In this document: one piece after another, positions 304 to 51,028 of the stretch
How positions within the stretch are numbered: the stretch's first letter is position 1
Layout of the letters: every line of letters starts with the position of its first letter
Made by a program: the position numbers and the translations under genes
The notes under the pieces: generated by a model
The model's database searches: none
The model's input: the letters and a program-made list of their open reading frames with translations, nothing else
Told to the model about the DNA's origin: nothing
Source of the DNA: Opitutaceae bacterium
GTDB lineage: Bacteria; Verrucomicrobiota; Verrucomicrobiia; Opitutales; Opitutaceae
Assembly: GCA_003151515.1 (NCBI GenBank)
Contig: PLXS01000030.1
Span: 77,757 to 141,756, forward strand
Reading direction: 5' to 3'
Length of the DNA stretch: 64,000 bases

Positions 304-1416
304 ATGAATGCGTCAACAGGGGCCCCCCTCAAAGCCATGTCCAAAGCCACTCCCGTCAAAGCCATAGAGACAAAGGCCGCGTCCCAGTCCGCCACGCCGG
401 GCCGGGACAAGAACATCGAGCTCGCCATATCCTCCATCACGAAGCAGTTCGGCGAGGGCTCGATCATGCGCCTTGGGAGCAACACCAAGATGAAGGTCGA
501 GACCCTCTCGACGGGCTCGCTGGCGATCGACCTCGCGCTCGGGGTCGGCGGCCTCCCTCTGGGGCGAATTATCGAGGTCTACGGTCCGGAGTCGTCGGGA
601 AAGACGACCTTCTGCCTGAGCGTGATCGCGGAGTGCCAGCGCAAGGGCGGGCTCGCCGCATTCATAGACGTGGAGCATGCGCTGGACCCGAAGTACGCCC
701 GCGTGGTCGGCGTGAAGCTCGACGACCTGCTCGTCTCCCAGCCGGACAGCGGCGAGGACGCCCTGAACATCACCGAGACGCTCATACGCTCCAACTCGAT
801 AGACCTGATCGTCCTTGATTCGGTGGCGGCCCTCATCTCGAAGCAGGAGCTGGACGGCCAGATGGGCGACCAGCAGATGGGCAGCCAGGCGCGGCTCATG
901 TCCCAGGCGATGCGCCGGCTGACCGCGGTCGTCAGCAAGACGAAGTGCGTGTGCGTGTTCACCAACCAGATCCGCGAGAAGATTGGCGTCATGTTTGGCA
1001 ACCCCGAGACGACGCCGGGCGGCCGCGCCCTCAAGTTCTTCTCGTCGATCCGCATCGACATCCGCCGCAAGGACCAGATCAAGACGCCGGAGGGCCGCGT
1101 CGTCGGCAACCGCACCAAGATCAAGGTGGTCAAGAACAAGGTCGCCCCCCCGTTCACGGAGTGCGAGTTCGACATCATGTACGACGAGGGCATCTCGTCG
1201 ACCGGCTCGCTCCTCGACCTGGGCATCGAGCACAAGATCCTGGAGAAGAAGGGGGCCTGGATAACCTACCAGGGGGACCTCGTCGGCCAGGGCCGCGACG
1301 CCGCGAAGCAGGCGCTGCGCGAGAAGCCCGAGCTCGCCGAGAATATAAAGAAGGCGATCCTGGAGAAGGTGAACGTCACGGGCGGAACCGTGGTGACCGG
1401 CGATCCCGCGGTCTGA
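304..1416 (+). CDS. recA: Recombinase RecA
   Basis: RecA forms filaments on single-stranded DNA, drives strand exchange and stimulates LexA cleavage. From the chosen ATG the protein is 370 residues. The Walker A motif GPESSGKT lies at about 94-101, followed by the family signatures [42 protein letters not shown] and TPGGRALKF. The ORF track start at 187 adds 39 residues without family character, while the ATG at 304 and another at 337 ([11 protein letters not shown]) are both plausible. The N-terminal tail before [11 protein letters not shown] is about 35 residues, longer than in E. coli RecA. No Shine-Dalgarno and no obvious LexA box are visible upstream. Confidence 0.97.
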
Positions 1417-1592
1417 CGCGGACGGAAAGCGGGAGGGCCCGGCGGCGACCGCGCGCCGGAGAAGGCTCGCGGGGAGGTATTTCTTGCCTATGAATCCCCG
1501 TCGTGAAAAACCTCGCCTCCCCCGTCATCAACCAGCGCGGGAGGGCTGCGCATAGCCCGGACGGCGCCCCGCTGCCCGCAGGCCCCCATCGC

Positions 1593-2981
1593 ATGAATGC
1601 CATCCGCACAACCGCAGCAGCGGCCCTCCTCCTCGGGCTCTCCTCGGCGTTCGCGATCGCGGACACCCCGGCGGCCCCGGCCTCGACCCCGATAGCCCCG
1701 GTCCCGCCTGGCGTGGCGCTGCGGGCCGCGACCGTCAGGGTCGCCGTTGCCCCCGACCACCGCGACTGGACCTACAGGGTCGGAGAGACCGCGCACTTTA
1801 AGGTGACGGTGACGGCGGACAGCGAGCCGATCGACGGCGTCAGCGTGACGTACACGGTCGGCCCCGACATGTTCCCCGGGGAGAAGAGGATCGCGGCGCT
1901 CCCGCTCGAGGGCATGACGGTCGACGCCGGCACGATGAGCGAGCCGGGCTTCCTGCGCTGCATCGTGACGGCGCAGGTTGCGGGGCAGAGTTACCGGGGC
2001 CTGGCGACGGCCGCCTTCGAGCCGGGGAGGATCGCGCCGACGCAGGTCGAGCCGGCGGACTTTGACGCATTCTGGGCCGCCGCCAAGGCCGAGCTCGCCT
2101 CGGTGCCGGTCGACGCCCGCATGACCCTCCTGCCGGACTCGTGCACATCGTCGGTCGACGTCTACCACGTGAGCTTCCGGGTGACCGGCGCGAAGGGCCC
2201 GTATTCCTCCCGGATCTTCGGGATCCTCTGCCAGCCGCGGGCGCCCGGGCGCTACCCCGCGGTGCTCAAGGTGCCGGGCGCCGGCGTGCGGCCCTACTTC
2301 GGGGACCCCGAGCTGGCGGCGAAGGGCGTCATCGTCCTTGAGATAGGGATCCACGGGATCCCGGTGAACATGGCCAAGGACGTCTACGACGACCTGGCGG
2401 CCGGGGCGCTGGGCGGCTACTGGCTGTTCAACTTCGACGACAGGGACCACTTCTACTACCACCGCGTCTACCTGGGCTGCATAAGGGCGAACGACTTCCT
2501 CACCTCCCTGCCCAACTGGGACGGCAGGCACCTGGTCGTGATGGGCGCGAGCCAGGGCGGCCAGCTGACGATCGTCACCGCGGCGCTCGACCCGCGCGTG
2601 ACGGGCCTCGCGGCCACCCACCCGGCGTTCTGCGACGTGTCGGCCGAGCTCCACGGCCGGGCCGGCGGGTGGCCCCACCCCTTCATGCCCCTGGCGGGAG
2701 GAGCGCCGTCGCCCCAGGCCACGCCGGCGAAGATCTCGACCGCGTCCTACTATGACACGGTCAACTTCGCCCGGCGCATCCGCGTGCCGGGCTACTACAG
2801 CTGGGGATACAACGACGAGACCTGCCCCCCGACCTCCACCTTCGCGGCCTACAACACGGTGACGGCGCCGAAGACGCTCGGGGTGACCCTCGAGCTGGGC
2901 CACACCTACACGCCGGAGCAGGGGGCGGCGGCCTCCGCATGGGTGGCGGGCGCCCTCGGCCTCAATCAGCCCTCTCAGTGA
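1593..2981 (+). CDS. Secreted acetylxylan esterase / cephalosporin-C deacetylase (CE7, AXE1 family)
   Basis: An alpha/beta hydrolase that removes acetyl groups from xylan or xylo-oligosaccharides. The ATG at 1593 gives a clear signal peptide (MNAIRTTAAAALLLGLSSAFA), so it is preferred to the GTG at 1503 used by the track. After an N-terminal beta-rich domain of about 130 residues, the AXE1 domain has the nucleophile elbow GASQGGQ (Ser near 320), DPRVTGLAATHPAFCD and a late LELGHTYTP with the probable catalytic His near 437. Length is 462 residues; CE7 enzymes are usually about 320, and the extra N-terminal domain explains the difference. The stop overlaps the GTG of the next gene (GTGA), so it is translationally coupled to a beta-mannosidase; the pair suggests hemicellulose use. 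Confidence 0.88.
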   Translation: MNAIRTTAAAALLLGLSSAFAIADTPAAPASTPIAPVPPGVALRAATVRVAVAPDHRDWTYRVGETAHFKVTVTADSEPIDGVSVTYTVGPDMFPGEKRIAALPLEGMTVDAGTMSEPGFLRCIVTAQVAGQSYRGLATAAFEPGRIAPTQVEPADFDAFWAAAKAELASVPVDARMTLLPDSCTSSVDVYHVSFRVTGAKGPYSSRIFGILCQPRAPGRYPAVLKVPGAGVRPYFGDPELAAKGVIVLEIGIHGIPVNMAKDVYDDLAAGALGGYWLFNFDDRDHFYYHRVYLGCIRANDFLTSLPNWDGRHLVVMGASQGGQLTIVTAALDPRVTGLAATHPAFCDVSAELHGRAGGWPHPFMPLAGGAPSPQATPAKISTASYYDTVNFARRIRVPGYYSWGYNDETCPPTSTFAAYNTVTAPKTLGVTLELGHTYTPEQGAAASAWVAGALGLNQPSQ

Positions 2982-5461
2982 GAATCCTTCCCCTCTCCCC
3001 CCTTCCCTGGAGATTCCGGGACTGCTCCGGCTCAGCGTGGCTTCCCTCCGTCGTGCCGGGTTGCGTCCACGACGACCTGCGCAGGTCCGGCAGGATACCG
3101 GACCCGTTCTGGGGCGTGAACGAGGAGAAGGTGCAGTGGATCGAGGAGCGGGACTGGGAGTACGCGGCCTCCTTTGTCGCCGACGCCGCGCTCCTCGCCG
3201 AGGAGGTGGTGGAGCTCGTCGCCGACGGCATGGACACGCTTGCGACCGTGCGGGTGAACGGGCGCGTGGTCGCCCGGACCGAGAACATGTTCATCGCCCA
3301 CCGCTGGGACATCAGGCGCCTGCTGCGGCGAGGGCCCAACCGCCTGAGCGTGCGCTTCGGGAGCGCGACGCGCTACATCCGCACGCACCGCACGTCCCAC
3401 CGGCCCAGAGAGTTCAGCGATCCCGTGGGCCGCTGCTGCGTCCTTCGCAAGCAGCAGTGCCAGTTCGGCTGGGACTGGGGCCCGCGCTTCGTGACGGCGG
3501 GGATCTGGCGCGACATCCGCATCGAGGCCTGGAGCGTGAACCGCCTCGCGTCGATCGCGGTGGCCCAGGAGCACGGCCGCGGCGGGAGGGTGACGCTGCG
3601 CCTCGTCCACGAGCTCGCGCGGCCCGACCCGGGCTCGTCGTGCCTCTGGCGCCTGTCGCTCGGCGCCAGGACGGTCGCCGCCGGCTCCGGCCCGACGATC
3701 GAGGTTCCGGCGCCTAGGCTGTGGTGGCCCAACGGGCAGGGCGAGCAGCCCCTCTACTTGCTCGAGGTCGAAGTTGTCGGCTCGGACGGCAAGGCGGCCG
3801 GGCGCTGGACCCGGCGCATCGGCCTTCGGACGATCGCTCTGGAGCGCCGCAGGGACGCGTGGGGGGAGTCCTTCCGGTTCGCCGTCAACGGCCGCCCGGT
3901 GTTCGCCAAGGGCGCCAACTGGATCCCGGCCAGCAGCTTCGTGGCGGGCCTCGGGCGGGCGCACTACGAGCGCGACCTGCGCAGCGCGGCCGCGGCGCAC
4001 ATGAACATGATCCGCGTCTGGGGCGGCGGGATCTACGAGAGCGAGGATTTCTACGACCTGTGCGACGAGCTGGGCCTCATGGTCTGGCAGGACTTCATGT
4101 TCGCCTGCACGCTCTACCCGGCGGACCCCGCCTTCGTCGCGAGCTCGCGGGCCGAGGCCGAGCACCAGGTCAAGCGCCTGAGGCACCGAGCGTGCCTCGC
4201 CCTATGGTGCGGCAACAACGAGGTGTGGGGCAACAACGTCCACGAGCTCATGGACCCGGAGAAGGGGCACCTGCGCGCCGACTATGAGCGGCTCTTCCAC
4301 CGCGCGCTCCCCCCGGTCGTGGCGGAGCACGGGGGCGGCACACCGTACTGGCCCTCCTCGCCGTGGCGGGGCGACGTGGCGGCCGACCACGCGGCTGGCG
4401 AGGCCCGCGGCGACACCCACTACTGGGACGTCTGGCACGCCCGCAACCCGGTGAAGGACTATGAGAAGTGGGCCTTCAGGTTCGTCTCCGAGTTCGGCAT
4501 GCAGAGCTACAGCTCCAGCGCGACCCAGGCGACGTTCTGCCCGCCAAACGACGGCAACGTCTTCGGCGCCACGATGGAGAACCACCAGAAGAACAAGCTC
4601 GGCAACCAGATCATCCTCGACTACGTCGCGCGCCGGTACCGCTTCCCGAAGGACCAGGAGTCGCTCATCTACCTCTCGCAGCTGAACCAGGCCCACTGCA
4701 TGCAGACGGGCGTGGGCCACTACCGCAGGACCATGCCCCGGTGCATGGGGACCCTCTACTGGCAGCTCAACGACTGCTGGCCCGTCGCCTCCTGGAGCTC
4801 CATCGAGTACACCGGCAGGTGGAAGGCCCTCCACCACGTGGCGCGGCGCTTTTTCGCCCCGGCCGTGGTGACCGCGCACGTGCGCGGCGACGAGGTGCAG
4901 GGCATCGGCAATTACCGCGTCTCCACCGTGCGCCGCGTGGACATCCACACGAGCTACGACGGCGTGCGCCCGGCCCGGGGCGCCGTGCGCTGGGACCTGA
5001 TGGACGTGGACGGCCGCAGGATCCTCTCCGGGCGCAGGGCGGTGTCCCTGCGGCCGATGACGAGCGCCCGCGTGAAGGCGCTCGACCTGGCGGCGCCCCT
5101 CGCGCGCCATGGCCGCGACCGCCTCTACCTGCGCATCGCCCTCGACGTCGCGGGCAGCCGCGTCAGCGAGGACACCGTCTTTTTGACGGCGCCCCGATTC
5201 ATCGACCTTCCGAGGCCCGTGACGCGCGTCGGCGTCACGATGGCGTCCCCCACCCGGGCCCTGGTCACCTTCACCTCGCCCGTGTTTCAGCACCGCTTCG
5301 CGTTCGACATCCCCGGCAGGCGCTTCGATTGCAGCGACAACCATTTCGAGCTGTACCCAGGCGAGGCGAAGCGGGTCGAGGTCGCCCTCTTTCGCCCGAC
5401 GACGGCCGCGCGCCTTGGGCGCATGATCACCCACCGGTCGCTCGCGGACACGTACGAGTGA
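2978..5461 (+). CDS. Beta-mannosidase, glycoside hydrolase family 2
   Basis: Hydrolyses terminal beta-mannosides of manno-oligosaccharides. Family landmarks run in order: the sugar-binding N-terminus with VPGCVHDDL and IPDPFWGVNEEKVQWIEERDWEY, CQFGWDWGPRFVTAGIW, FAKGANWIPASSF, MIRVWGGGIYE, the acid/base motif WCGNNEVWGNN (Glu near 415) and the nucleophile motif FVSEFGMQSY (Glu near 505). Length is 827 residues, normal for the family. The track starts at ATG 2939 inside the previous gene; the GTG at 2978, which overlaps that gene's stop, gives MRILPLSPLPWRFRDCSG and fits the usual beta-mannosidase N-terminus better. No signal peptide, so probably cytoplasmic, acting on products released outside, possibly with the help of the upstream esterase. 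Confidence 0.93.
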   Translation: MRILPLSPLPWRFRDCSGSAWLPSVVPGCVHDDLRRSGRIPDPFWGVNEEKVQWIEERDWEYAASFVADAALLAEEVVELVADGMDTLATVRVNGRVVARTENMFIAHRWDIRRLLRRGPNRLSVRFGSATRYIRTHRTSHRPREFSDPVGRCCVLRKQQCQFGWDWGPRFVTAGIWRDIRIEAWSVNRLASIAVAQEHGRGGRVTLRLVHELARPDPGSSCLWRLSLGARTVAAGSGPTIEVPAPRLWWPNGQGEQPLYLLEVEVVGSDGKAAGRWTRRIGLRTIALERRRDAWGESFRFAVNGRPVFAKGANWIPASSFVAGLGRAHYERDLRSAAAAHMNMIRVWGGGIYESEDFYDLCDELGLMVWQDFMFACTLYPADPAFVASSRAEAEHQVKRLRHRACLALWCGNNEVWGNNVHELMDPEKGHLRADYERLFHRALPPVVAEHGGGTPYWPSSPWRGDVAADHAAGEARGDTHYWDVWHARNPVKDYEKWAFRFVSEFGMQSYSSSATQATFCPPNDGNVFGATMENHQKNKLGNQIILDYVARRYRFPKDQESLIYLSQLNQAHCMQTGVGHYRRTMPRCMGTLYWQLNDCWPVASWSSIEYTGRWKALHHVARRFFAPAVVTAHVRGDEVQGIGNYRVSTVRRVDIHTSYDGVRPARGAVRWDLMDVDGRRILSGRRAVSLRPMTSARVKALDLAAPLARHGRDRLYLRIALDVAGSRVSEDTVFLTAPRFIDLPRPVTRVGVTMASPTRALVTFTSPVFQHRFAFDIPGRRFDCSDNHFELYPGEAKRVEVALFRPTTAARLGRMITHRSLADTYE

Positions 5462-5531
5462 GGGCGCGCGGCAAAATCGTGTCGCGCTAGCGCGGCAACC
5501 CGGGAAGCCTCAGGTCCGCGACGCCCAGCCC

Positions 5532-7088
5532 ATGCCTTCAAACGCCGCCCCATCGCACGCCCCGGGCGGGGAGAACGCGCCGGAGCCCTCCTCCCCGGCC
5601 GCGTCCGGGCCGGCTGGCGCTCCCCGCTGGGCGGCGCCCGCGCTCCTGGCGCTTCTGGCGGCCTACGGCGTCCTCCTCGCCTTCTACGTCGGCGCCGTGG
5701 CCGGGGGTTCCGACAACTCGGGTTATTTCAACGAGGCGCGCCTGCTCGCGCACCTCTCGGTCCACGCCAAGCCCAGGGTTCTCGAGGGGGTGCCCGCCGC
5801 AGAAGCCCCCCCGTACCTCTACATCCCCCTAGGGTTCAAGCCGGCGGCCGGCGACCCGTCCCGGATCGTTCCCACGTATCCCCCGGGCCTTCCTCTCCTC
5901 CTCGCCCCGGTCGCCCGCATCGTTGGCTGGCGCCACGCCGGCGACGTCGCGCTGGTCCTGCATGCGCTGGCCGGGCTGGCCCTCACCTTCGCCCTCGGCC
6001 GCAGGTGCGGCCTTCCCGCCGGCTGGTCGCTGCTCGGGTCCGCCGTGCTGGCCGCAAGCCCCCTTTACCTTTACACGTCGCTCCAGGCGCTCAGCGACGT
6101 GCCGGCGACCGCGTGGTCCCTGGCGGCGGTCCTCGCCGCGTGGAAGAGCCGGAAGCGAGCCGGCTGGGCGCTCGCCGCCGGCATCGCTTTCGCGGTGGCC
6201 TTCCTTGTCAGGCCCAGCAACTTCATGCTCGCCATCCCGATGGCTGTAGCCTTCGGGCCCTCCGTGCGCCGCTGGCTCTTGTGCGCGGTGGGCGCCCTCC
6301 CGGGGATCGCCGCGTGGTTGGCGATCAACCACGCGGCGTACGGGGGCTACCTCCAGAGCGGCTATGGGGCCATCGGCAACGAGTTTCACGGGGCGCTGGT
6401 CGGCGCAACCCTCCGGTACTGCGCCAGGTGGCTTCCCAACCTGTTCGGCCCCATCATCATCGCGGCGCCGGCCGTCCTTATCCTGGCGCGGGCGCGGCCC
6501 GGGGCGGTCGCCGTGCTCGCGTCGTGGGCGCTCGCCTACCTCTGCTTCTACTCCGCCTACCGGTGGACCCACGAGGACTGGTGGTTCCTGCGCTTCCTGC
6601 TGCCGGCCGCGCCCGCCATGATCGTCTCCGGCCTGCTCGTGGTCGCGACGTGCTTCCGGATGCTGCGCGCGAGCATGCCCGGGTCGCTGATGGCCACCCT
6701 CGCCGCGATCCTCGTCGTCGCGTGCCTCGGGGCCGAGACCGCGCAGGTCTACACGCTCGAGGCATGGTCGATAGGCCGCGGGGAGCGCAAGTACGAGAGG
6801 GCCTGCGACTGGCTGAACGCCAACGTGCCGCGCAATTCGGTCGTGATCGCCAACCAGTTCAGCGGCGCGCTCTTCTATTTCACGGGCTTCACCGTGCTGC
6901 GCGCGGACCAGATCGACCCCGCGACGGCCGCCAGGATACTCTCCGCCGCCCGCGCCGGCCGCAGGCCCCTGTACGCCGTGTTCTTCACCTTTGAGGAGCC
7001 GCTCCTCTCAAGGGTCCCGTCCCGCTGGGCCGTCGTCACCTCGGTCGACGACGTGCTGATCCAGCGCTGCACGGGGATCGACCACTGA
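5532..7088 (+). CDS. ArnT/GT39-like polytopic membrane glycosyltransferase
   Basis: A 518-residue membrane protein with about ten hydrophobic segments and the architecture of lipid-linked sugar transferases (ArnT/PMT, DUF2029-like). After a short Pro/Ala-rich cytoplasmic tail comes the first helix (ALLALLAAYGVLLAFYVGA) and a loop with SDNSGYFNEARLLA, where an acidic residue is usually catalytic. The motif YPPGLPLLLAPVARIVG follows a periplasmic loop, as in other family members. A soluble C-terminal tail of roughly 130 residues ends the protein. Acceptor and sugar cannot be told from sequence. It lies 70 bases after the beta-mannosidase and 82 before mnmE, without an evident operon link. Confidence 0.72.
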   Translation: MPSNAAPSHAPGGENAPEPSSPAASGPAGAPRWAAPALLALLAAYGVLLAFYVGAVAGGSDNSGYFNEARLLAHLSVHAKPRVLEGVPAAEAPPYLYIPLGFKPAAGDPSRIVPTYPPGLPLLLAPVARIVGWRHAGDVALVLHALAGLALTFALGRRCGLPAGWSLLGSAVLAASPLYLYTSLQALSDVPATAWSLAAVLAAWKSRKRAGWALAAGIAFAVAFLVRPSNFMLAIPMAVAFGPSVRRWLLCAVGALPGIAAWLAINHAAYGGYLQSGYGAIGNEFHGALVGATLRYCARWLPNLFGPIIIAAPAVLILARARPGAVAVLASWALAYLCFYSAYRWTHEDWWFLRFLLPAAPAMIVSGLLVVATCFRMLRASMPGSLMATLAAILVVACLGAETAQVYTLEAWSIGRGERKYERACDWLNANVPRNSVVIANQFSGALFYFTGFTVLRADQIDPATAARILSAARAGRRPLYAVFFTFEEPLLSRVPSRWAVVTSVDDVLIQRCTGIDH

Positions 7089-7170
7089 GGGTCTCCGGCC
7101 CCCCCCCTCCCCGCAGCACGGGCCCCTCCGCGCTTGAGTCCGCGGCCCCGCGCGCGTTGGTTGGGCCCCG

Positions 7171-8514
7171 ATGGCGCGCCACACGGACACGATCGCGGCA
7201 CTGGCCACGCCGGCCGGGGTGTCGGCCCTCGCGTTGATTCGTATCACTGGACCGGATACAAAGGCCGTCACCGCGGCGGCGCTGGGCTTCGCCCCCCAGG
7301 CCCGCGTCGCCACGCATTGCGACTACGGCGCCATCGACGACGTCGTCGCCACCCTCTACGAGGGCCCCAACTCCTACACGGGCGAGGACTCCCTCGAGAT
7401 CTCGTGCCACGGCAGCCCGTTCATCGCGCGAAAGATCCTGTCCGACCTCCTCGGGCGCGGGTGCCGGCCGGCGGGGCCCGGGGAGTTCACGCAGAGGGCC
7501 TTCCTCAACGGGCGAATGGACCTGAGCCAGGCGGAGGCCGTCATGGACCTGATCAACGCGCGAAGCGACAGGGCCCTCGCGGCGGCCCGCGCCGTCCTTC
7601 GGGGCGCCCTCGGCCGCCACCTCGCCGTGCTGATCGACGGGCTCGTCGGCGCGCTCGCCTCCGTCGAGGCGTACATCGACTTTCCCGATGAGGACCTGCC
7701 TCCCGAGGACCGGGCGCGGCTCTCGGAGCGCGTGGGCGCGGTCCTCGCCGGCACCGACCGGCTTCTGGCGACCGAGCGCACCGGCGCCCTGCTTCGCCAC
7801 GGCTTCGCGACGGTGATCCTCGGGGAGACGAACGCCGGCAAGAGCTCCCTGTTGAACCGCATCCTCGGCAACGAGAGGGCGATCGTGAGCCCCGAGCCCG
7901 GCACCACACGCGATTTCATCGAGGCCCCCGCGAACGCGGGGCCCCACGCCCTTCGGCTCATCGACACGGCCGGCCTCAACCCGGCCGCAACGGGGATCGA
8001 GGCCCTGGGCGTCGAGCGGGCGCTCGAGCAGGCTCGCAGCGCGGACATCCTCCTCGTCGTCGTGGACGCGGGCAGGCCCGCCCCTCCGCTCCCGCCGGCG
8101 CTCAGGGGATGTATCACGCCATCGAATACAATCTTCGTCCTGAACAAGGCCGACCTGCTGGGCGGGCGCCCCCCGGCGGCCGCGCCGCCCGCCGGCTTCG
8201 CCGCGGTCGCCGTTTCCGCGCTCACCGGGCTCGGGCTGGACGGGCTCATGGCCGAGATCGCGCGCCTGGCCGAGGCGATGCAGGACACCGTCGGCGAGGA
8301 GCGGATAGCGATCAACGTGCGCCACGCCCACTACCTCGCGCTCGCTCGCGCATGCCTCGGCTCCGCGCGTGAGAAGGTCGAGGAGAGCGCGCCAGCGGAG
8401 CTCCTCGCAAGCGACCTCAGGGGCGCGCTTGATGCCTTCGGCGAGATCTCCGGCAAGGTGGACAACGAGCGGATGCTCGATCAATTATTCGCGTCCTTCT
8501 GCATTGGGAAATGA
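7171..8514 (+). CDS. mnmE: tRNA uridine-5-carboxymethylaminomethyl modification GTPase MnmE
   Basis: With MnmG it installs the cmnm5 group on the wobble uridine of tRNAs. The N-terminal formyl-THF-binding domain begins DTIAALATPAGVSALALIRI and includes FTQRAFLNGRMDLSQAEAVMDLI. The inserted G domain has G1 GETNAGKSSL (about 221-230), G3 DTAGLN (about 265) and G4 NKAD (about 324). The protein ends with the catalytic CIGK motif. Length is 447 residues, normal. The G3 motif has Asn where Arg or Ile is usual after DTAGL. mnmG follows 65 bases downstream, the two partners of one enzyme complex. Confidence 0.97.
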   Translation: MARHTDTIAALATPAGVSALALIRITGPDTKAVTAAALGFAPQARVATHCDYGAIDDVVATLYEGPNSYTGEDSLEISCHGSPFIARKILSDLLGRGCRPAGPGEFTQRAFLNGRMDLSQAEAVMDLINARSDRALAAARAVLRGALGRHLAVLIDGLVGALASVEAYIDFPDEDLPPEDRARLSERVGAVLAGTDRLLATERTGALLRHGFATVILGETNAGKSSLLNRILGNERAIVSPEPGTTRDFIEAPANAGPHALRLIDTAGLNPAATGIEALGVERALEQARSADILLVVVDAGRPAPPLPPALRGCITPSNTIFVLNKADLLGGRPPAAAPPAGFAAVAVSALTGLGLDGLMAEIARLAEAMQDTVGEERIAINVRHAHYLALARACLGSAREKVEESAPAELLASDLRGALDAFGEISGKVDNERMLDQLFASFCIGK

Positions 8515-8579
8515 CCGGTGCCTTTCGGTTGGGGATGGAGTCCGGTCACCCCCAAGCACGCCCATAATTACTTAAGTAC

Positions 8580-10454
8580 TTGTACACCAATAATAAGTGT
8601 TATGACGTGATCGTTTGCGGCGCCGGACATGCCGGCGTCGAGGCGGCGCTCGCGGCCTCCCGCATGGGAGCCTCCACCCTCCTGCTGACTGGCAACATCG
8701 ACACGATAGCCCAGATGAGCTGCAACCCGGCGATCGGCGGCCAGGCCAAGGGCCAGATCGTCCGGGAGATCGATGCCCTCGGTGGCGAGATGGCGATCAA
8801 CACCGATTGCACGGGAATCCAATTTAGGCTGCTCAACGAATCCAAGGGCCCGGCAGTCCAGTCGCCCCGGGCCCAATGCGACAAGAAGGCCTACCAGTTC
8901 AGGCTGAAGCACACGATCGAGCTCCAGCCGAACCTCACCCTGTTCCAGGCAACGGTGACCAGCCTGCTCTACAAGGATCACGCCGTGATGGGCTGCCGGA
9001 CCAATTTGGACATAGAGTTCTATGGCCGGTGCATCGTGGTCACGACAGGAACATTCCTGAGGGGCCTGATGCACATCGGACAGAACAAGAACGAAGGAGG
9101 TAGGCTCGGCGACTTTAGCTCTAAGACATTATCAGCAAGCCTGATGGAAATCGGCATTGAGCTTAAACGCCTCAAGACAGGCACCCCGCCCCGGGTTCTT
9201 GGTCGAAGCCTCGATTTTACCAAGATGATCGAGCAGAAAGGCGACGCAATCCCCACCCTGTTCGCCTTCCATGACACTCGCGACAACGAGCAATTGTTCC
9301 ACGTGGAACATTCCGGCGAAACCAGGATCGGTTGGCCGCCGGGATCCGCCCAGGTCTCGTGCTGGATGACGCATACGTCATCGAAGACCGCCACGATCGT
9401 TAGGTCGAACCTGCACAAGTCCGCCATGTACAGCGGCGAGATCGAAGGTGTCGGCCCAAGGTATTGCCCAAGCATTGAGGACAAGTTCGTCCGATTCGCC
9501 GACAAGCCGCGCCACTTGCTTTTCCTTGAGCCCGAAGGTCGGAACACCAACGAATACTACATCAATGGCCTTTCGACCTCGCTGCCTTTCGATGTCCAGC
9601 TCGACATGGTCCACAGCATTCCCGGTCTTGAGAACGCCGTTCTGCTGCGCCCGGCTTACGCAGTCGAATACGACTTTGCTCCGCCGACCCAGCTGTATCC
9701 GACCCTCGAATCCAAGAAGATCGAGAACCTGTTTCTCGCCGGCCAAATCAATGGAACCTCCGGCTATGAGGAGGCCGCAGGCCAAGGCCTGATCGCTGGG
9801 ATAAACGCGGCCAACAAGGCTAGGGGAGCAGCACCGATAATCCTGGGCCGCCACGAATCCTATATCGGCGTCCTCATCGACGATCTCGTGACTAAAGGCA
9901 CAGACGAGCCCTACCGAATGTTCACGAGCAGGGCGGAGCACCGCCTGCTTCTCAACCACGGCAGTGCAGAGCTCAGGCTCATTCACCACGCTGAAAGACA
10001 CAACTTGTTAACTTCAAGCCGCTTGAATAGAATTCGAGACAAGGCGTCCCGGATCGACAAATGGACAAAAGAACTTGAGTCAAATCGTTACTACGGAGAC
10101 ACTTGGGCAACAATTTTTCGCCGGAAAGGGGTGGACGCCCCGCTTCCGGATGATTTCCTCAAGGAATCTCCACAGGTGCGGGACGAAGTGCTGTATCGCC
10201 TTTTCTACCAAGGCTATCTGGAGCGTGAGATGCGCCAGATAGAGAGACTTCAGGATATTGAGAAGATAAGGATTCCCTTGGGGTTTGATTATATGAAGAC
10301 ATCCGGCCTGCGTCGTGAAAGCGCAGTTAAGCTGTCCCATATCAAACCTCTTACGCTCGGACAGGCCAGTCGGATGAGCGGTGTCAACCCAACCGACATC
10401 AGCCTGCTGATGGTGGCCATCGAATCGGCAAGGGGAGGGGACCGAAGCCATTGA
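8580..10454 (+). CDS. mnmG: tRNA uridine-5-carboxymethylaminomethyl modification enzyme MnmG (GidA)
   Basis: FAD-dependent partner of MnmE. It has the dinucleotide fold [21 protein letters not shown], then [91 protein letters not shown] and [16 protein letters not shown]; length 624. The start is a TTG (8580) in a low-GC stretch. The gene is about 45% GC in sampled lines while neighbours are near 70%. Residues about 231-254 ([24 protein letters not shown]) lie where I remember E. coli MnmG having a much shorter link between the FSF-like segment and the ITHT motif; this apparent insertion encodes a perfect parS palindrome. The stop overlaps the TTG of trmB. Confidence 0.96.
9295..9310. other. 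parS-type ParB-binding palindrome inside mnmG
   Basis: The sequence TGTTCCACGTGGAACA is a perfect 16-bp inverted repeat. It matches the chromosomal centromere parS: the B. subtilis consensus is TGTTTCACGTGAAACA, and in Pseudomonas the GTTCCACGTGGAAC core is used. It lies in the mnmG frame and reads as part of LFHVEH (residues about 239-244). ParB loads on such sites near oriC to organise chromosome segregation. No other perfect copy was seen in the window. parA and parB themselves are not present. Confidence 0.85.
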
Positions 10455-42199: not shown

Positions 42200-43408
42200 A
42201 TGGCGGTAGACCCCGTCAACCTGTCCGACATAAGGGCGGCGCGCCGCAGGATCAAAAGCGGGGTGATCCTGACACCGTGCACGGCCTCCATCCCACTGAG
42301 CGAGATCACAGGCTCAAGGGTCGCCTGCAAGCTCGACAACTTCCAGAGGACGGGCTCGTTCAAGGAGAGGGGAGCGCGCAACGCGCTCCTCATGCTCTCG
42401 CGGGCGAGGAGGAGCCGGGGCGTCGTGGCGGCGTCGGCCGGCAACCACGCGCTGGGCCTCGCCTACCACGGGAAGCTCCTCGGCATCCCGGTCACGGTTG
42501 TGATGCCGGAGTTTGCTCCGCTCATCAAGATAACGACATGCCAGCGCCTTGGAGCGAGCGTGATCCTCCACGGGAGCGATTTCACCGAGGCGAGGGCCGA
42601 GGCGGACCGGATCGCGGCCACGGGGCCAGCCTACATCCACGGGTTCGACGACCCGCACATCATCGCCGGACAGGGGACGATGGGCCTCGAGATACTGGAG
42701 CAGGTCCCGGATGTCGACGCGATCTTATGCCCCGTCGGCGGCGGGGGCCTCCTCGCAGGCATCTGCGTCGGCGTCAAGGCCGTGAGGCCCTCCGTCAAGG
42801 TGATAGCCGTGGAGAGCGTCTGCACGGGAAACCTCACCGCGGCGATGCGCGCCGGCCGGCCCGTGCATGTTCGAAGGCGGGCGACCCTTGCCGACGGCCT
42901 CGCGACGCTCACCGTCGGCGATAACGCATTCGCGCTCATCCGCCGGCGTGTGGACCAGGTGGTCAGGGTCGAGGAGAAATGGATCTCGCTCGCGATCCTG
43001 CGCATGCTCGAGCTCGAGAAGACGGTGGTCGAGGGGGCCGCCGCCGCGCCGCTCGCCGCGCTCATCTCGGGCAAGCTGCGGGGCCTTAAGGGCAAGAGGG
43101 TCGCCCTGGTCGTCTGCGGCGGCAACATTGACCCCGCGATCCTCGGGCGCGTGATCGAGAAGGGCCTCGTCCACGACGGGCGCCTGACACGCTTCACGGT
43201 GACCATCAGCGACAGGCCGGGCGGGCTTGCGGAGCTCGCTCGCGTGATCGCTTCCTGCGGCGCGAGCATCAACCAGGTGTCCCACGACCGGGCCTTCAGC
43301 GGGCCCGACGTCAGCGAGACGCGCGTCGTCTGCACCGTGGAGACGCGGGACCGCGCGCACATATCGATGCTGCACCGGGCGCTCAGGAGGGACGGATTCC
43401 GGCCGTGA
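42200..43408 (+). CDS. ilvA: Threonine ammonia-lyase with C-terminal ACT domain
   Basis: PLP fold-type II enzyme converting threonine (or serine) to 2-oxobutyrate and ammonia, 402 residues. PLP Lys is in GSFKERGARNAL (Lys55), with ASAGNHALGLAYHG, HGFDDPHIIAGQGTMGLEI and the glycine loop PVGGGGLLAGI. From about 330 an ACT domain (FTVTISDRPGGLAELARVIASCGASINQVSHDRA) suggests amino-acid feedback. It resembles TdcB/short IlvA. The stop overlaps the GTG of the binding-protein/permease fusion. Confidence 0.93.
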   Translation: MAVDPVNLSDIRAARRRIKSGVILTPCTASIPLSEITGSRVACKLDNFQRTGSFKERGARNALLMLSRARRSRGVVAASAGNHALGLAYHGKLLGIPVTVVMPEFAPLIKITTCQRLGASVILHGSDFTEARAEADRIAATGPAYIHGFDDPHIIAGQGTMGLEILEQVPDVDAILCPVGGGGLLAGICVGVKAVRPSVKVIAVESVCTGNLTAAMRAGRPVHVRRRATLADGLATLTVGDNAFALIRRRVDQVVRVEEKWISLAILRMLELEKTVVEGAAAAPLAALISGKLRGLKGKRVALVVCGGNIDPAILGRVIEKGLVHDGRLTRFTVTISDRPGGLAELARVIASCGASINQVSHDRAFSGPDVSETRVVCTVETRDRAHISMLHRALRRDGFRP

Positions 43409-45726
43409 TAGCGAGGCTGCCGGGCCTTGCGGCGTGCGCGCTTGTCCTCGCGGCGGCGCCAGCCAGGGGATCGCCGCCGCGCGATCTCGACATCCCGGTG
43501 TTCGAGGGCGGCTACGGCATAGGATTCTACAAGGACGCGGCGCGGCGGTTCGAGGCCCTTCGGCCGGGCGTTCGGGTCCACGTGTACGGGGACCCGAGGA
43601 TACAGGACCAACTCAGGATCCGGGTGATCGAGGGAAGCCTGCCGGACGCGGCATGGGTGCCCTACCTCCTTTGGCCGGCGCTCATCCGGGCGGGCAAGGT
43701 GGTGAACCTGGGCGGGTACCTCTCCGGGCCGAACTGGGAGGGGGACTCCAGGTGGATGGACACGTTTCATCCGGGCTCCCTCGACTCCTGGCGGGTCGGG
43801 TCGGGCGTGTACGGGCTTCCTTTCGGCTATTCCTGCTGGAGCATCTTCTACAACCGTGGGCTGTTAAGGGCCCACGGATGGAGGGAACCCCGGACGTGGG
43901 ACGAGTTCTTTGCGCTCTGCGAGCGCATGCGCGCCCGGGGGATCACTCCGCTTAGCCTGCCCGGGACGCGCTGGCTCTACCCCGACGCCTTCTTCAGGGC
44001 AGCGTACCACGGGCTCGCCGGGCCGCGGGGGTGGGCGGCCCTGAATGCGGACGAGCCGGGCTCATGGGACGATCCGATGGTCGTCGAAGGCGCTCGAATC
44101 CTGCGCAGGGTGACCACCGAGGACGTCCAGCCGGGGTGGGAGGGGGACACCGCGCAGGGGGCCGAGCTCCTCTTCCTGCAGGGAGGCGCCGCGATGACCG
44201 TTTCAGGGTCATGGTTCTTCAACGAGATGGCCGGCAAGATCCCGGAGGGGTTCGACGTGGGCACCATGAACTTCCCGGTGTTCCCCGGAGGGCGGGCGGA
44301 CCCCTCGGCGATACAGACGGGAAGCGACTGCTTCTTCGTCTTCAAGACCGGCGACGGGGAGCGCGAGCGCCTGACCGTCGACTTCCTGCGATTCCTGACG
44401 TCGCGCGACCGGGCCGAGGCCTTCGTGAGGGAGAACGACGCGCCGGTCGCCGTAAAGGGGGTTCCGGCCTCCGCGTACTCGGCGCGGATGAGGGAAACGG
44501 CCGCGATGATCGCGGGAGCCAGGGAGGCCTACAACATGCCCCAGGAGATGATGCAGCCGCCGGTGCTGCGGCAGGCCCTCGTGGACGAGACGCGCCGGCT
44601 CATGGAGGGAAGGCTGGAGCCGGAGGAGTACGCGCGGCGGCTCGAGGCGGCGGCGGCCGCCGACAGGGCCCGGCTTGCCGATCCCGGGCATGTCGACTAC
44701 CGGCACACGGCGGCCGCGGCCGCGCTTTTGGCGGCGCTTGCAGCAGTCACGGCGTGGCTTATTGCCGGCAGGCTGAGGGCCGCCCGTCGGCCGGCAGCTT
44801 CGAGGCCCGGGCAGGACGAGGGGGGCTTCGGGAGGCTAAGGGGCCCCATGGCCGCGGGCTTTGTCGGCCCGGCGCTGGCGCTGTACGCGGCGGTCATGCT
44901 TTTGCCCGCGCTTGTCGCCTTCCTCTGGGCGTTCACGCGCTGGGACGGCATCGGGGCCCGGGCTTGGGCGGGACTCTACAACTTCAAGTCCCTGCTCCTC
45001 GAGAGCGACGTCCTGTGGACGGCGCTCGGGAACAACCTCTACCTCATGGTGGTTCCGGCCCTCCTCACGGTGCCGATAGCCCTCCTGCTCGCGGTTCTCA
45101 TCCACCGCGGGGTGTGGGGCGCCAGCGCCTTCCGCGTGGTGATCCTCTTTCCGAACCTACTGGGCGGAATCGCGGCCATCCTGATCTGGCTTAACGCCTA
45201 CCAGCCCCACAGCGGGCTTGTTAACGCGACGCTCTCGGGCCTCGGCTCGGCGCTGCACTGGGACTGGCTGCGGTCCTTCGCAAACTACCCGTGGCTGTCG
45301 GAGCAGCACCTGTACGCGGCGCTGGTGCCGATCTACGTGTGGGTCGGCTGCGGCTTCAACCTGATCCTGTACCTGGCGGCGATGGAGGGGATAGACCCCC
45401 AGCTGTACGAGGCGGCGGAGATCGACGGCGCCCCGGCCTGGATGCAGTTCGCGACGATCACGCTGCCGCTCATCCGCGAGGTGCTGGCGATCTCGGCGGT
45501 ATTCCTAGTCATCGGGGGGCTCAACGCCTTCGAGATGGTCTGGCTTCTCACGTCGCAGGATCCGTCCGCCTCCTCGCAGACCCTCGGGACGCTCCTGGTG
45601 ACGACCATGTTCAAGAACATGGACATCGGCCGGGCGTCGGCCCTGGCCGTCATCCTTTTCGCGCTCGTCCTCGCGGCGAGCGCCGCGGCGCTTCGATGGC
45701 TCAAGGGGGAGCCGGCGGAGGCATGA
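43405..45726 (+). CDS. ABC sugar transporter: solute-binding protein fused to MalF-type permease
   Basis: A 773-residue fusion. Residues 1-22 look like a signal/anchor sequence, and about 23-430 form a family 1 extracellular binding protein (GIGFYKDAARRFEALRPGVRVHVYG, YGLPFGYSCWSIFYNRGLLRAHG, TWDEFFALCERMRARGITPLSL, GAAMTVSGSWFFNEM). A single helix (about 433-456) then crosses the membrane. A MalF-like permease begins near 480 and carries the EAA loop EAAEIDGAPAWMQFATITLP (about 670-690) that contacts the ATPase. The reading frame is unbroken with consistent GC3. The start is GTG overlapping ilvA; no ATPase gene is nearby. Confidence 0.88.
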   Translation: MIARLPGLAACALVLAAAPARGSPPRDLDIPVFEGGYGIGFYKDAARRFEALRPGVRVHVYGDPRIQDQLRIRVIEGSLPDAAWVPYLLWPALIRAGKVVNLGGYLSGPNWEGDSRWMDTFHPGSLDSWRVGSGVYGLPFGYSCWSIFYNRGLLRAHGWREPRTWDEFFALCERMRARGITPLSLPGTRWLYPDAFFRAAYHGLAGPRGWAALNADEPGSWDDPMVVEGARILRRVTTEDVQPGWEGDTAQGAELLFLQGGAAMTVSGSWFFNEMAGKIPEGFDVGTMNFPVFPGGRADPSAIQTGSDCFFVFKTGDGERERLTVDFLRFLTSRDRAEAFVRENDAPVAVKGVPASAYSARMRETAAMIAGAREAYNMPQEMMQPPVLRQALVDETRRLMEGRLEPEEYARRLEAAAAADRARLADPGHVDYRHTAAAAALLAALAAVTAWLIAGRLRAARRPAASRPGQDEGGFGRLRGPMAAGFVGPALALYAAVMLLPALVAFLWAFTRWDGIGARAWAGLYNFKSLLLESDVLWTALGNNLYLMVVPALLTVPIALLLAVLIHRGVWGASAFRVVILFPNLLGGIAAILIWLNAYQPHSGLVNATLSGLGSALHWDWLRSFANYPWLSEQHLYAALVPIYVWVGCGFNLILYLAAMEGIDPQLYEAAEIDGAPAWMQFATITLPLIREVLAISAVFLVIGGLNAFEMVWLLTSQDPSASSQTLGTLLVTTMFKNMDIGRASALAVILFALVLAASAAALRWLKGEPAEA

Positions 45727-46663: not shown

Positions 46664-49600
46664 ATGCTTGGAATGCCAGCCATGGAGAGGTTCCCCCTTT
46701 GCGCCTTGATCCTGGCGCCGGCCCTGTGTGTCACCTCGGCCCTTGGGGCATCGTCAACGGCGGCCAGGAGCCGGTTCCCCGGAAGCATAAGGGAGGTCGC
46801 CGCGTCGGCCGGGGCCGCGATGGCCCCCGCCGTCTCACGCGTATCGCTGAGGCCCGAGGAGGCGTCGGCCCCCATCGCCTTCGAGGTGGCTCTTCGCATG
46901 CGCAACTTCGACGAGCTGCAGCAGCGCATCGCCAGGGGCGAGCAGATCCCCCGCGCCGAGATGGCTGAGCGGTACTTTCCCCTTGCGGCGGATCACGACC
47001 GGCTGGTGCAGTGGCTCAGGGGCAAGGGCATCGAGATCCTGAGGACCGACGAGAACCGGGTGGCCGTCTTCGCCAGGGGACCGGTTTCCGTGGTCGCGCA
47101 GGCCCTCGACGTCACCTTCGCCCGCGTCATCGGGAGGGACGGAGGGGAATACACCTCAGCGATCACCGCACCGAGCCTGCCCGGGGACGTTTCGCCCGCG
47201 GTCCTCGGGATCCACGGCCTTCAGCAGCACATCAGGCAGCGGCCGCTCGCGCTTCCCCGGCAGGTGCGCCCGGACCTGACGGTCACCGTCGGGGGCTATT
47301 ATCCGAGCCAGATAGCCCAGGCCTACAATGCAAACGGCCTGACGGCCACCGGCAGCGGGCAGACGATTGCCATCTATGCCCTGGGGTACCCGATGAGCAG
47401 CGACCTGACGGCCTTCTGGCAGACGGTCGGGGTGTCGCAGTCGCTCTCGAACATCCAGCAGGTCGACGTCGCGGGGGGGCCGGGAGCCTCGCCCGATCCC
47501 GAGATAATTGAGGAGGCGACCCTGGACACGGAGTGGGCCAGCGCCCTTGCGCCCGCGGCGACGATCAGAATTTACGCAGCGAACGAGGCCGATCCCGGCG
47601 AGAACGACGAGATCCTGCAGCAAATATATGCGGACCTGCCGAGCCAGCCGTCGCTCCATCAGCTATGCATCTGCATCGGGGGCGATGAGGCCGAGGACGA
47701 GAGGGACTACCTCATCATCGAGGCGCAATACATGGCCAACCTGGCGAGCGGCGGAGTCTCAGTCTTCGTCGCCTCGGGCGACAACGGGGCCTACGACGAC
47801 CCGATCAATGCTTCCCTTCTCACGGTTACCACCCCGACATCCGACCCCGACGTGACGGGCGTAGGAGGGACAACCCTCGTCCTCTCGGGCGGCACGGTGA
47901 CCTCCGAGACGGCCTGGAGCGGCAGCGGCGGCGGGGAGAGCGTCGTGTTCAGCAGGCCGCCCTGGCAGACGGGGATCGGCGTGCCAGCCGGGGTGACGAG
48001 GCTCGTCCCCGATGTGGCCGCCGCTGCCGACCCCCAAAATGGCGCTTATATCTACAGCACGGCCGTGGCCAATGGCGCGGCGGTCGTGGGCGGGACAAGC
48101 TGGGCCACCCCGGTATGGACCGCGTTCTGCGCGCTCCTGAACCAGGGCCGCAGCACGCCCCTGGGGCTTTTGAACCCCAGAATATACCCGCTTATCGGCT
48201 CCAGTGCGTTCCGCGACATCACGAGCGGTGACAACCGCTTTTACAACGCGGGGGTTGGCTACGACATGTGCACTGGCATCGGCGTCCCGGACATGGCGGC
48301 GCTCTCCACGGCCTCGCTGAGCGCGACCACCACGGTCAACATTCCGGCGCAGCTCGGCAACGTGTTCACGACCGTCGGACAGCCGGCGACCTTCTTTGTC
48401 GTCGCGCAGGGTGCGGCGGATTACTCCTACAGCTGGCAGCGGCTGCCCATCGGCACGTCGACATGGGAGGCCGTGTCGGACAACTCGACGTTCTCGGGCT
48501 CGCTCACGGCGACCCTCGTCGTAAACAACACGACGGCCGCGATGTCGGGGGACGAGTACAGGTGCACCGTCACCTCGGGCTCGCAGAGCGCGACCAGCAC
48601 GCCTCCGGCGACGCTAACGGTGAGCGGATATGGCGTGACCACGATCGCGGGCTGGCCGGGCTCGGTGGGCAGCGCCAACGGGACGGGATGGGAGGCGCGG
48701 TTCGCCTATCCGGGCAGCGTGCGCACCGACTCCGCCGGCAATGTCTACGTCGCGGACTCGTACAACAACACGGTGCGCAAAGTGACGCCCAATGGCGTCG
48801 CGACGACGGTCGGCGGCGTCGCCGGCAAGAGCGGCAACACGAACGGGCCGGTGGCAACGGCGCTGCTCAACGAGACGGCGGGTGCGGCCGTCGACGCCTC
48901 GGGCAACCTCTTCGTCGCCGACAACGGCAATTACGAGATCCGCGAGATCAGCGCCTCGGGCACGGTGACGACGCTGGCCGGGTCTGGGGCCCCTGGCGTG
49001 GTCGACGGGGCGGGCACGGCCGCGAGCTTCTTCGACCCCCAGAACCTGGCGATAGACACGGGCGGCAACCTCTATGTCGCGGACGGCATGGGCAACGTCA
49101 TCCGCAAGGTGACGCCCTCGGGGCAGGTGAGCACGTTCGCCGGGGCCGGGGTGTCCGGCAGGGCGGGGCCTGCCGGCTCGCAGGACGGGACGGGATCCGC
49201 GGCCGAATTCAACGACCCGACGGGGATCGCAGTCGACGTGAGGGGGAACCTGTACGTCGCGGACGCGGTGAACGACACGATCCGCATGATCAATCCGGCG
49301 GGAGTCGTGACGACGCTTGCGGGTTCGCCCGGGCTCAGCGGGAGCGCGGACGGGTCGGGACCGGCCGCGAGGTTCAGCAACCCTGCGGGCGTCGGTGTCG
49401 ACGCCGTAGGCAACGTCTACGTGGCCGACAACGGCAACAACACGATCCGCATGATCACGCCCGAGGGGGTCGTGACTACGCTCGCCGGCTCGGCGGGCAG
49501 CGAGGAGAACATCGACGGCCTCCCGGGCAACGCGCGGTTCGCGGGCCCCGGGGACGTGACGATCGACAACTCGGGCATCATCTACGTGGCGGACTCGCAG

Positions 49601-51028
49601 AACATGACCATCCGGCGGATCATCCCCGCCTCGTCGGCGACGCTCGGAATCTCGACGCAGCCGGAGAGCGCGGCGGTCAATCTGGGCTCGATGGTTGTCT
49701 TCGCCGTGGGGCCCGCCGGATACGCGCCGTTCAGCTACCAGTGGTACTTCAACGGGGGCGCCGTCATCGGGGCGACGGGGCCCTCCTACACGCTGGACAA
49801 CGTGCAGACGGCCGATGCGGGCTCCTACACCGTGATTGTCTCCAACGCGTCTGGCTCGGTGACGAGTTCCCCGGCCGTCCTCACCGTCAACGTGCCGGCG
49901 GGCGACCCGCAGATCTCGGCGCAGCCGCAGGGGGGAACGCTCACGGCCGGCGGCAGCGTCGGGCTCTCGGTGTCGGTGACAGGCAACGGGCCCTTCAGCT
50001 ACCAATGGTACGTGAACGGCGGGGCGATCGCGGGCGCCACGGCGCCCACGTACAATGCGACGACGATAGGGAGCTACACGCTCGCGGTCAGCAACGCCGC
50101 GGCGACGGTGACCAGCGACGCCGCGGTCGTCACCTCGGGAAGCCGCCTGATCAACATCTCGACGCGGGCCCTCGTCGGGACGGGAGGGAACATCACGATC
50201 GCCGGAATCTACATCGACGGGCCGTCGAGCGAATACAAGCAGCTCGTGATCCGCGGCGTCGGGCCCACGCTCTCGCAGTTCAATGTGTCCGGCGCCCTGT
50301 CGGCTACGACCATCTCCGTGTTCGACACGAGCGGCAACGTGATCGTCTCCAACACGGGCTGGGGCAACGCCCCGGTCGCGGGCAACTCGAGCGTCGAGGC
50401 GGCCTTCGAGCAGGCCACAGCCAACAGCATGAGAGCGGTCGGAGCCTTCGCGCTGCCGGCGGGCAGCGCCGACAGCGCCCTGGTGGCGGACCTGCCGCGG
50501 GGCAGCTACACGGTGCAGATGACGGGGGTCGGCGACGCTACCGGCGTCGGGCTCGTCGAGGTCTACGAGGCCAACACGTCGGATCCCGCGGTGATGACGG
50601 ACATCTCGACGCGCGCCCAGGTGGGAACCGGCTCGAACACACTCATCGCCGGGTTCGTCGTGACCGGCACGCAGCCGGCGACGGTGCTCGTGAGGGGCGA
50701 CGGCCCGGCGCTCAAGGCGGTTCCCTTCAGCGTCCCTGGGACCCTCGCCCAGCCGGTCGTAAGCGTGTATGACGGCAATTCGATGCTGATCGCGAGCAAC
50801 CAGGGATGGGCCAACAACCCCAAGGCGGGAGGCTCGACGGTCGCCGCGTCGTTCCGCGCGGCGACGGCGGCGGACTTCAGCTCCGCGGGGGCGTTCCCCC
50901 TTGCAAGCGGCTCGCTCGATTCCGCGCTCGTCCTGACGCTGCCTCCTGGGGCCTATTCCGCCTGGATCACGTCCGCGGACGGCACGCTGGGGGTCGCCCT
51001 GGCCGAGGTGTACCAACTCGAGCCCTGA
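46664..51028 (+). CDS. Secreted sedolisin (S53) protease with NHL, Ig-like and duplicated C-terminal domains
   Basis: Serine-carboxyl protease, 1454 residues from ATG 46664. A signal peptide (ERFPLCALILAPALCVTSALG) precedes a pro-kumamolisin domain. The catalytic domain shows Glu284 and Asp288 (EEATLDTEW), oxyanion Asp373 (ASGDNGAY), Ser479 (GGTSWATPVW) and the calcium-site region DITSGDNRFYNAGVGYDMCTGIG. Then come an Ig-like domain (about 559-656), NHL repeats (about 666-987), two Ig-like domains (about 993-1159) and two related C-terminal domains (about 1161-1309 and 1311-1454) beginning INISTRALVGTG and DISTRAQVGTG. The track's start at 45929 lies in malG. Confidence 0.9.
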   Translation: MLGMPAMERFPLCALILAPALCVTSALGASSTAARSRFPGSIREVAASAGAAMAPAVSRVSLRPEEASAPIAFEVALRMRNFDELQQRIARGEQIPRAEMAERYFPLAADHDRLVQWLRGKGIEILRTDENRVAVFARGPVSVVAQALDVTFARVIGRDGGEYTSAITAPSLPGDVSPAVLGIHGLQQHIRQRPLALPRQVRPDLTVTVGGYYPSQIAQAYNANGLTATGSGQTIAIYALGYPMSSDLTAFWQTVGVSQSLSNIQQVDVAGGPGASPDPEIIEEATLDTEWASALAPAATIRIYAANEADPGENDEILQQIYADLPSQPSLHQLCICIGGDEAEDERDYLIIEAQYMANLASGGVSVFVASGDNGAYDDPINASLLTVTTPTSDPDVTGVGGTTLVLSGGTVTSETAWSGSGGGESVVFSRPPWQTGIGVPAGVTRLVPDVAAAADPQNGAYIYSTAVANGAAVVGGTSWATPVWTAFCALLNQGRSTPLGLLNPRIYPLIGSSAFRDITSGDNRFYNAGVGYDMCTGIGVPDMAALSTASLSATTTVNIPAQLGNVFTTVGQPATFFVVAQGAADYSYSWQRLPIGTSTWEAVSDNSTFSGSLTATLVVNNTTAAMSGDEYRCTVTSGSQSATSTPPATLTVSGYGVTTIAGWPGSVGSANGTGWEARFAYPGSVRTDSAGNVYVADSYNNTVRKVTPNGVATTVGGVAGKSGNTNGPVATALLNETAGAAVDASGNLFVADNGNYEIREISASGTVTTLAGSGAPGVVDGAGTAASFFDPQNLAIDTGGNLYVADGMGNVIRKVTPSGQVSTFAGAGVSGRAGPAGSQDGTGSAAEFNDPTGIAVDVRGNLYVADAVNDTIRMINPAGVVTTLAGSPGLSGSADGSGPAARFSNPAGVGVDAVGNVYVADNGNNTIRMITPEGVVTTLAGSAGSEENIDGLPGNARFAGPGDVTIDNSGIIYVADSQNMTIRRIIPASSATLGISTQPESAAVNLGSMVVFAVGPAGYAPFSYQWYFNGGAVIGATGPSYTLDNVQTADAGSYTVIVSNASGSVTSSPAVLTVNVPAGDPQISAQPQGGTLTAGGSVGLSVSVTGNGPFSYQWYVNGGAIAGATAPTYNATTIGSYTLAVSNAAATVTSDAAVVTSGSRLINISTRALVGTGGNITIAGIYIDGPSSEYKQLVIRGVGPTLSQFNVSGALSATTISVFDTSGNVIVSNTGWGNAPVAGNSSVEAAFEQATANSMRAVGAFALPAGSADSALVADLPRGSYTVQMTGVGDATGVGLVEVYEANTSDPAVMTDISTRAQVGTGSNTLIAGFVVTGTQPATVLVRGDGPALKAVPFSVPGTLAQPVVSVYDGNSMLIASNQGWANNPKAGGSTVAASFRAATAADFSSAGAFPLASGSLDSALVLTLPPGAYSAWITSADGTLGVALAEVYQLEP
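48718..49626 (+). repeat. NHL/beta-propeller repeats in the sedolisin gene
   Basis: At least six units of about 55-60 residues repeat the pattern GN-(V/L)-YVAD-x-x-NT-(I/V)-R-K/M-(I/V)-x-P-x-G-x-V-(T/S)-T-(L/F)-AG. Examples are SAGNVYVADSYNNTVRKVTP, GGNLYVADGMGNVIRKVTP and VGNVYVADNGNNTIRMITP. These would form a six-bladed propeller for binding. The repeats are diverged at DNA level, so recent expansion is not evident. Confidence 0.8.

Follow-up and report, generated by a model that had tools for sequence, protein, structure and literature searches.

The window investigated in this study, a stretch of 64,000 nucleotides from an Opitutaceae genome, carries at 46664..51028 on the forward strand a complete reading frame with an ATG start and a TGA stop, which encodes an S53 sedolisin of 1454 residues with a multi-domain tail and for which an ATG at 46682 is a possible alternative start. 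The protein begins with a putative Sec-type signal peptide (MERFPLCALILAPALCVTSALG, followed by A; 46664..46750, +), which was judged by eye from the sequence. It continues with a pro-kumamolisin activation domain identified by family models at residues 66-190 (46859..47233, +), where the Pfam scan matches PF09286 (Pro-kuma_activ) at residues 66-188 with E=6.8e-14 and 52.8 bits at a cut-off of 23.5, and with the S53 catalytic domain, located by motifs and alignments at residues 212-547 (47297..48304, +), which contains Glu284, Asp288, Asp373 and Ser479 together with Asp518 and Asp534 of the calcium site. The following tail comprises an Ig-like domain A defined by family models (residues 569-653; 48368..48622, +), a six-bladed NHL propeller (residues ~655-993; 48626..49642, +) and the Ig-like domains B (residues 996-1075; 49649..49888, +) and C (residues 1082-1154; 49907..50125, +), latter two found by Pfam and by family models. 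Beyond the prodomain, the Pfam scan returned NHL and two copies of Ig_3. The protein ends in two repeats of a C-terminal module of an unnamed, mostly-beta family, supported by family models, a genome search and a structure model, of which the first covers residues 1161-1303 (50144..50572, +) and the second residues 1313-1451 (50600..51016, +), three residues short of the stop.

This layout agrees with the original prediction of an intact giant sedolisin with an Ig-like domain, a likely six-bladed NHL propeller, two further Ig-like domains and a tandem C-terminal pair, all of which were recovered by motifs and by domain and structure models. A disruption of the frame, which had been named as potential counter-evidence, is not found, since the frame is open and relatives with 53-65% identity over this part retain it in a sequence alignment.

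The catalytic residues Glu284, Asp288, Asp373 and Ser479 were found at their predicted positions in the motifs EEATLD, SGD and GGTSWATP, and all four match those of kumamolisin (1t1e), which aligns with the window protein over ~510 residues with E=1e-43. The protein thus displays the features of a sedolisin, with an activation domain and with the catalytic Glu, Asp and Ser and the oxyanion Asp in conserved motifs. The same four residues are invariant in an alignment of 14 sequences and kept in 37 of the 39 catalytic domains that were gathered. The claim of catalysis rests on sequence because the AlphaFold model is of low confidence in this region. The propeller is modelled with a pLDDT of ~90 as six blades. 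Its NHL family model spans residues 678-993 with six repeats, the ring is closed by an N-terminal strand, and the fold comparison with solved NHL propellers yields TMt values of 0.81 (7djj) and 0.88 (6d69). It is highly improbable that the window protein is a non-catalytic relative employing the sedolisin fold for adhesion. Such proteins exist, as illustrated by one relative (L091) that lacks the catalytic Ser and the oxyanion Asp, and the window protein has itself replaced the two network residues of kumamolisin, Glu32 and Trp129; against this, the window protein and nearly all relatives retain the prodomain, every residue of the catalytic site and the Asp of the calcium site.

Recurrence of the architecture in Opitutaceae

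A pro-kumamolisin match is present in 24 of 150 Opitutaceae genomes, and most relatives of 1150-1516 residues share the arrangement of the window protein or come close to it. Eight loci with full frames (L061-L063, L065, L066, L068, L077 and L094) show exactly the order of prodomain, catalytic domain, Ig, six to seven NHL repeats, two Ig domains and C-terminal pair, and eleven others (L064, L069-L071, L078-L081, L084, L088 and L091) deviate chiefly in how many Ig or NHL units they contain, where the number of distinct genes is lower than that of loci since some contigs were reached by two tools and carry two locus names (L064 and L084 are one such case). A protein of a Verrucomicrobia bacterium (L073) at 48% identity still has the prodomain, the catalytic domain, an Ig domain and six NHL repeats. 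The window shares a dehydratase, parts of an ABC transporter and a glycyl-tRNA synthetase-type gene as neighbours with L064, L065 and L094, and the same neighbours are partly kept in L062, L066 and L068. The recurring architecture and the shared neighbours thus describe a stable gene that is inherited within Opitutaceae.

The window sedolisin therefore adds a member to a known enzyme family, with an architecture that is common in its lineage. The same domain order in most Opitutaceae sedolisins rules out that the architecture is unique, and the assertion that adhesive tails of this size are rare among sedolisins is not supported in this lineage, most of whose members of comparable length are arranged in the same or nearly the same way. 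The original prediction had also envisaged that many identical architectures might already be characterised: many do exist, and none that is characterised was found. Word searches of the open literature retrieved nothing on sedolisins with NHL repeats, and for sedolisins in Verrucomicrobia only work on an acidobacterial family.

Several further features were observed in these regions. At 43405-45726, the window encodes an ABC transporter protein of 773 residues, in which a solute-binding domain is apparently fused to a permease and which is followed by a second permease; the fused gene is also located upstream of the sedolisin in relatives. In L091 (4904-9451), the catalytic Ser and the oxyanion Asp both align with Glu, while prodomain, Ig, NHL and C-terminal pair are retained, and a second pair-bearing protein precedes the gene. 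One contig (L082) contains two complete sedolisins in tandem (1037-5098 and 5344-9333), both ending in another tail, termed type C. The second PF09286 match in the genome of the window (G000, contig C5, ~5900-6400; L098:3859-5394) was rejected as a second protease and is only a remnant, in which leader and prodomain are joined straight to the last ~35 residues of the C-terminal repeat with the middle absent, as a consequence of either an internal deletion or an assembly artefact.

The C-terminal pair and its passengers

The part of the protein that does not already have a name is the terminal pair, two domains of ~140 residues each. Used as query against the genome of the window, the C-terminal 293 residues returned 39 matches. 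Besides the window protein, the pair terminates 15 other proteins of this genome (L099-L113), a count of those carrying both repeats that were read, with the last repeat ending 1-6 residues from the stop, and two further proteins (L114 and L115) contain a single repeat. Its passengers include a subtilase (S8) with a PQQ-type propeller (L100), a glucoamylase-like protein (L104), glycoside hydrolases of the families GH53 (L106) and GH16 (L107), an arylsulfotransferase (L110), an RCC1 protein (L109), a DUF5122 propeller (L103), NHL propellers (L099, L105, L108 and L111) and a Big_7 array (L112), and they are unrelated to one another.

In library scans, the pair is matched by no Pfam or NCBIfam model. 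Its structure is predicted with a mean pLDDT of 81 as mostly beta with short helices, and when the model of both domains was compared with PDB folds, the matches were weak, with low TM-scores, and none of them points to a function. Its assignment to a known domain was thus rejected. The pair carries neither a transmembrane nor a cysteine anchor, and the C-terminus of the window protein (...GVALAEVYQLEP) contains no helix. A comparison with plasmids gave no match, and word searches of the open literature, as opposed to sequence searches, found no description of the pair. Across the phylum, it is present in 21 of 388 genomes, 18 from the same family, one from the same order and two from the same class, in a survey that scored about six candidates per genome and hence only a part, so that a missing match within the family is only provisional evidence of absence.

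The occurrence of the pair on enzymes with very different substrates argues for a role in location rather than in substrate recognition, and no evidence was found for the suggestion that the protease targets one specific polymer or cell surface. The pair might still be a substrate- or matrix-binding module, akin to carbohydrate-binding domains, which would tether enzymes to plant polymers or extracellular polysaccharide with no part in sorting. We regard this as possible though not likely: glycoside hydrolases are represented by several of the passengers (GH16, GH53 and the glucoamylase-like protein) and the predicted beta structure resembles that of many binding modules, but such modules may sit anywhere in a protein, whereas the pair hardly varies in its place at the very end and is common to passengers of unrelated substrates. 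A binding module would account less readily than a function in sorting for this constant place and for the variety of passengers. Even less probable is a role of pair and Ig domains as mere stabilisers or spacers, spread by gene duplication and domain shuffling. While Ig and propeller domains are promiscuous and the fold search of the pair has revealed no match suggestive of function, the pair is strongly conserved between passengers that are not related, invariably takes the last position and almost always occurs as a tandem. As read from its sequence, the terminal pair is best described as a putative new variant among C-terminal sorting modules.

Exchange of tails and a neighbouring secretin

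In the sister genus g17, five orthologues (L083, L089, L090, L092 and L093) agree with the window sedolisin from the prodomain and catalytic domain through Ig and NHL to the next Ig, while the pair is replaced by an end made up of 5-11 consecutive glycines, a hydrophobic stretch or helix and basic residues. Since the NCBIfam scan of these tails gave no GlyGly-CTERM match at E<=1, their assignment to this type rests on form and context. Tails of GlyGly-CTERM proteins are composed of a G-rich motif, a transmembrane helix and a basic end (PMC3237569, PMC6219818). A rhombosortase above the curated cut-off of TIGR03902 is encoded on the same strand directly behind the sedolisin in three genomes (G142, G060 and G086), as at L090:3908-4609 and likewise at L089 and L093; none was seen behind L083, and L092 is located close to the end of its contig. 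This replacement by a tail of a membrane-sorting type with adjacent rhombosortase speaks against a binding module, and the exchange for another tail in orthologues equally against a mere spacer. The genome of the window (92% complete) contains as best TIGR03902 match a rhomboid-like protein with 32.6 bits at a cut-off of 84, and no rhombosortase above cut-off was detected in the other g1 genomes tested. Four pair-bearing genomes (G021, G007, G020 and G049) have a rhombosortase elsewhere, and the two systems are therefore not mutually exclusive. Tails of other relatives include type B (L086), type C (L082, L095 and L096) and further types. Type B, an unnamed region of ~290 residues that starts at residue 1120 in L086, is also found at the C-termini of giant proteins encoded next to a secretin (L178 and L183).

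A corresponding arrangement in the genome of the window involves the pair itself. On contig C38, a PilQ/GspD-like secretin (L141:12074-13816) is followed after ~40 nucleotides by the start of a pair-bearing giant protein, both together covering L141:12074-17318. Upstream of the secretin are four ORFs with no Pfam match, which are possibly PilM/N/O-like. The same arrangement is found at L177, L179, L180, L182, L184, L188, L189, L191, L194, L196 and L198. A pair-bearing giant of 1154-2731 residues lies directly behind the orthologous secretin in 10 of the first 21 family genomes examined, and two further clear cases (G021 and G054) were identified in longer or further stretches, which amounts to at least 12 of ~40 family genomes; L200 (G030) was left out of this count owing to the odd C-terminus of its ORF. 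Type B takes the place of the pair at the end of the giant in two genomes (G003 and G023), and in G023 this end matches the tail of the sedolisin, likewise of type B (55% identity over 290 residues, E=9e-104). The giants of G024, G050 and G001 have a fibronectin-like end, as judged by eye. Many family genomes have no giant behind the secretin, the adjacency being absent in about half or more, and G058 encodes a pair-bearing sedolisin with no such adjacency. As the adjacency is inherited, it is to be read as conserved synteny that reflects one or few events and not twelve independent ones.

Collectively, these observations make it reasonably probable that the window encodes an extracellular sedolisin with an exchangeable C-terminal sorting or anchoring pair, which resides on the cell surface and probably gets there via a secretin-type channel. 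The comparisons themselves document the anatomy of these proteins and the distribution of their parts, and what we infer for this enzyme concerns its activity, pH, surface location, anchoring function and route. The vertically inherited protein would be exported by Sec and its prodomain removed, whereupon the Glu-Asp-Ser/Asp site would cleave proteins beyond the inner membrane and, to judge from its family, would probably do so under acidic conditions. The part encompassing Ig domains and propeller may act as spacer, stalk or binding surface. The terminal pair would be an exchangeable module for sorting or anchoring that takes the sedolisin to the outer cell surface, thus making the enzyme a putative cell-surface protease, and by virtue of the pair no fewer than 15 further cellular proteins, both enzymes and adhesin-like ones, would share the same route. 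Passage of the outer membrane would probably proceed through the PilQ/GspD-like secretin, the likeliest channel among those seen. On this simplest reading, the pair would play for the window sedolisin the part that a GlyGly-CTERM-like tail plays in the orthologues, and would determine that the exported enzyme reaches the cell surface. The original proposal of a surface-bound or secreted protease thus gains support from leader, prodomain, catalytic residues, the tail shared with secreted enzymes and its GlyGly-CTERM-like replacement, as far as such a location can be predicted from sequence. A more far-reaching version, in which the pair serves Opitutaceae and their relatives as address tag for a so far undescribed route of surface display through the secretin, with the giant as partner or main cargo and with lineages swapping the tag for other tails or GlyGly-CTERM, appears rather unlikely.

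Little work has addressed the placement of dozens of hydrolases outside the cells of Verrucomicrobiota. Should the pair prove to be a sorting module, a large share of the Opitutaceae surface proteome would be predictable from sequence alone, on a scale indicated by the 39 matches in the genome of the window and up to 109 first-look candidates in another, and the secretin would become a concrete candidate channel.

Relationship to known systems

With kumamolisin and other S53 sedolisins (1t1e, 1gt9), the window protein shares the prodomain, the catalytic Glu/Asp/Ser/Asp and the calcium-site motif. The solved enzymes stop after the catalytic domain, whereas the window protein extends for ~900 further residues, and the alignment with 1t1e reveals the replacement of a Glu and a Trp of the extended hydrogen-bond network. 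Its propeller has six blades as in 7djj, 6d69 and the teneurin-like 9ifo, but the other teneurin domains remain unmatched and the propeller is generic.

The C-terminal domain of T9SS cargo (PMC4804311) resembles the pair as a folded beta-sandwich that is found on many unrelated secreted proteins and preceded by Ig-like domains. It differs in that the pair shows no match to a T9SS family in Pfam and NCBIfam scans, is tandem and belongs to a different phylum; a search for SprA_N in the genome of the window gave no match, though the search control also matched nowhere. A PEP motif with C-terminal helix, the hallmark of PEP-CTERM proteins, is absent from the window protein. The genome encodes two exosortases (L144 and L145, on C8 and C33) and may thus also have a route of the PEP-CTERM type.

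The closest parallel is offered by GlyGly-CTERM and rhombosortase, which in V. cholerae, together with the T2SS, place the serine protease VesB on the cell surface (PMC6219818). Families including S8/S53 have members with or without GlyGly-CTERM or with another functional tail instead (PMC3237569), and for Opitutus terrae Haft and Varghese list one GlyGly-CTERM protein with adjacent rhombosortase (PMC3237569). The window protein has neither the G-rich motif, transmembrane helix and basic end nor a rhombosortase above cut-off in its genome, and the GlyGly-CTERM tail is short and contains a transmembrane helix, whereas the pair consists of two folded domains with no helix of this kind. Both systems have in common that one C-terminal module is found on otherwise unrelated secreted enzymes of a genome, and the GlyGly-type tail sits at the same place in orthologues of the window sedolisin. 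The natural swap, with its adjacent rhombosortase, allows two types of tail to be compared directly on the same protease.
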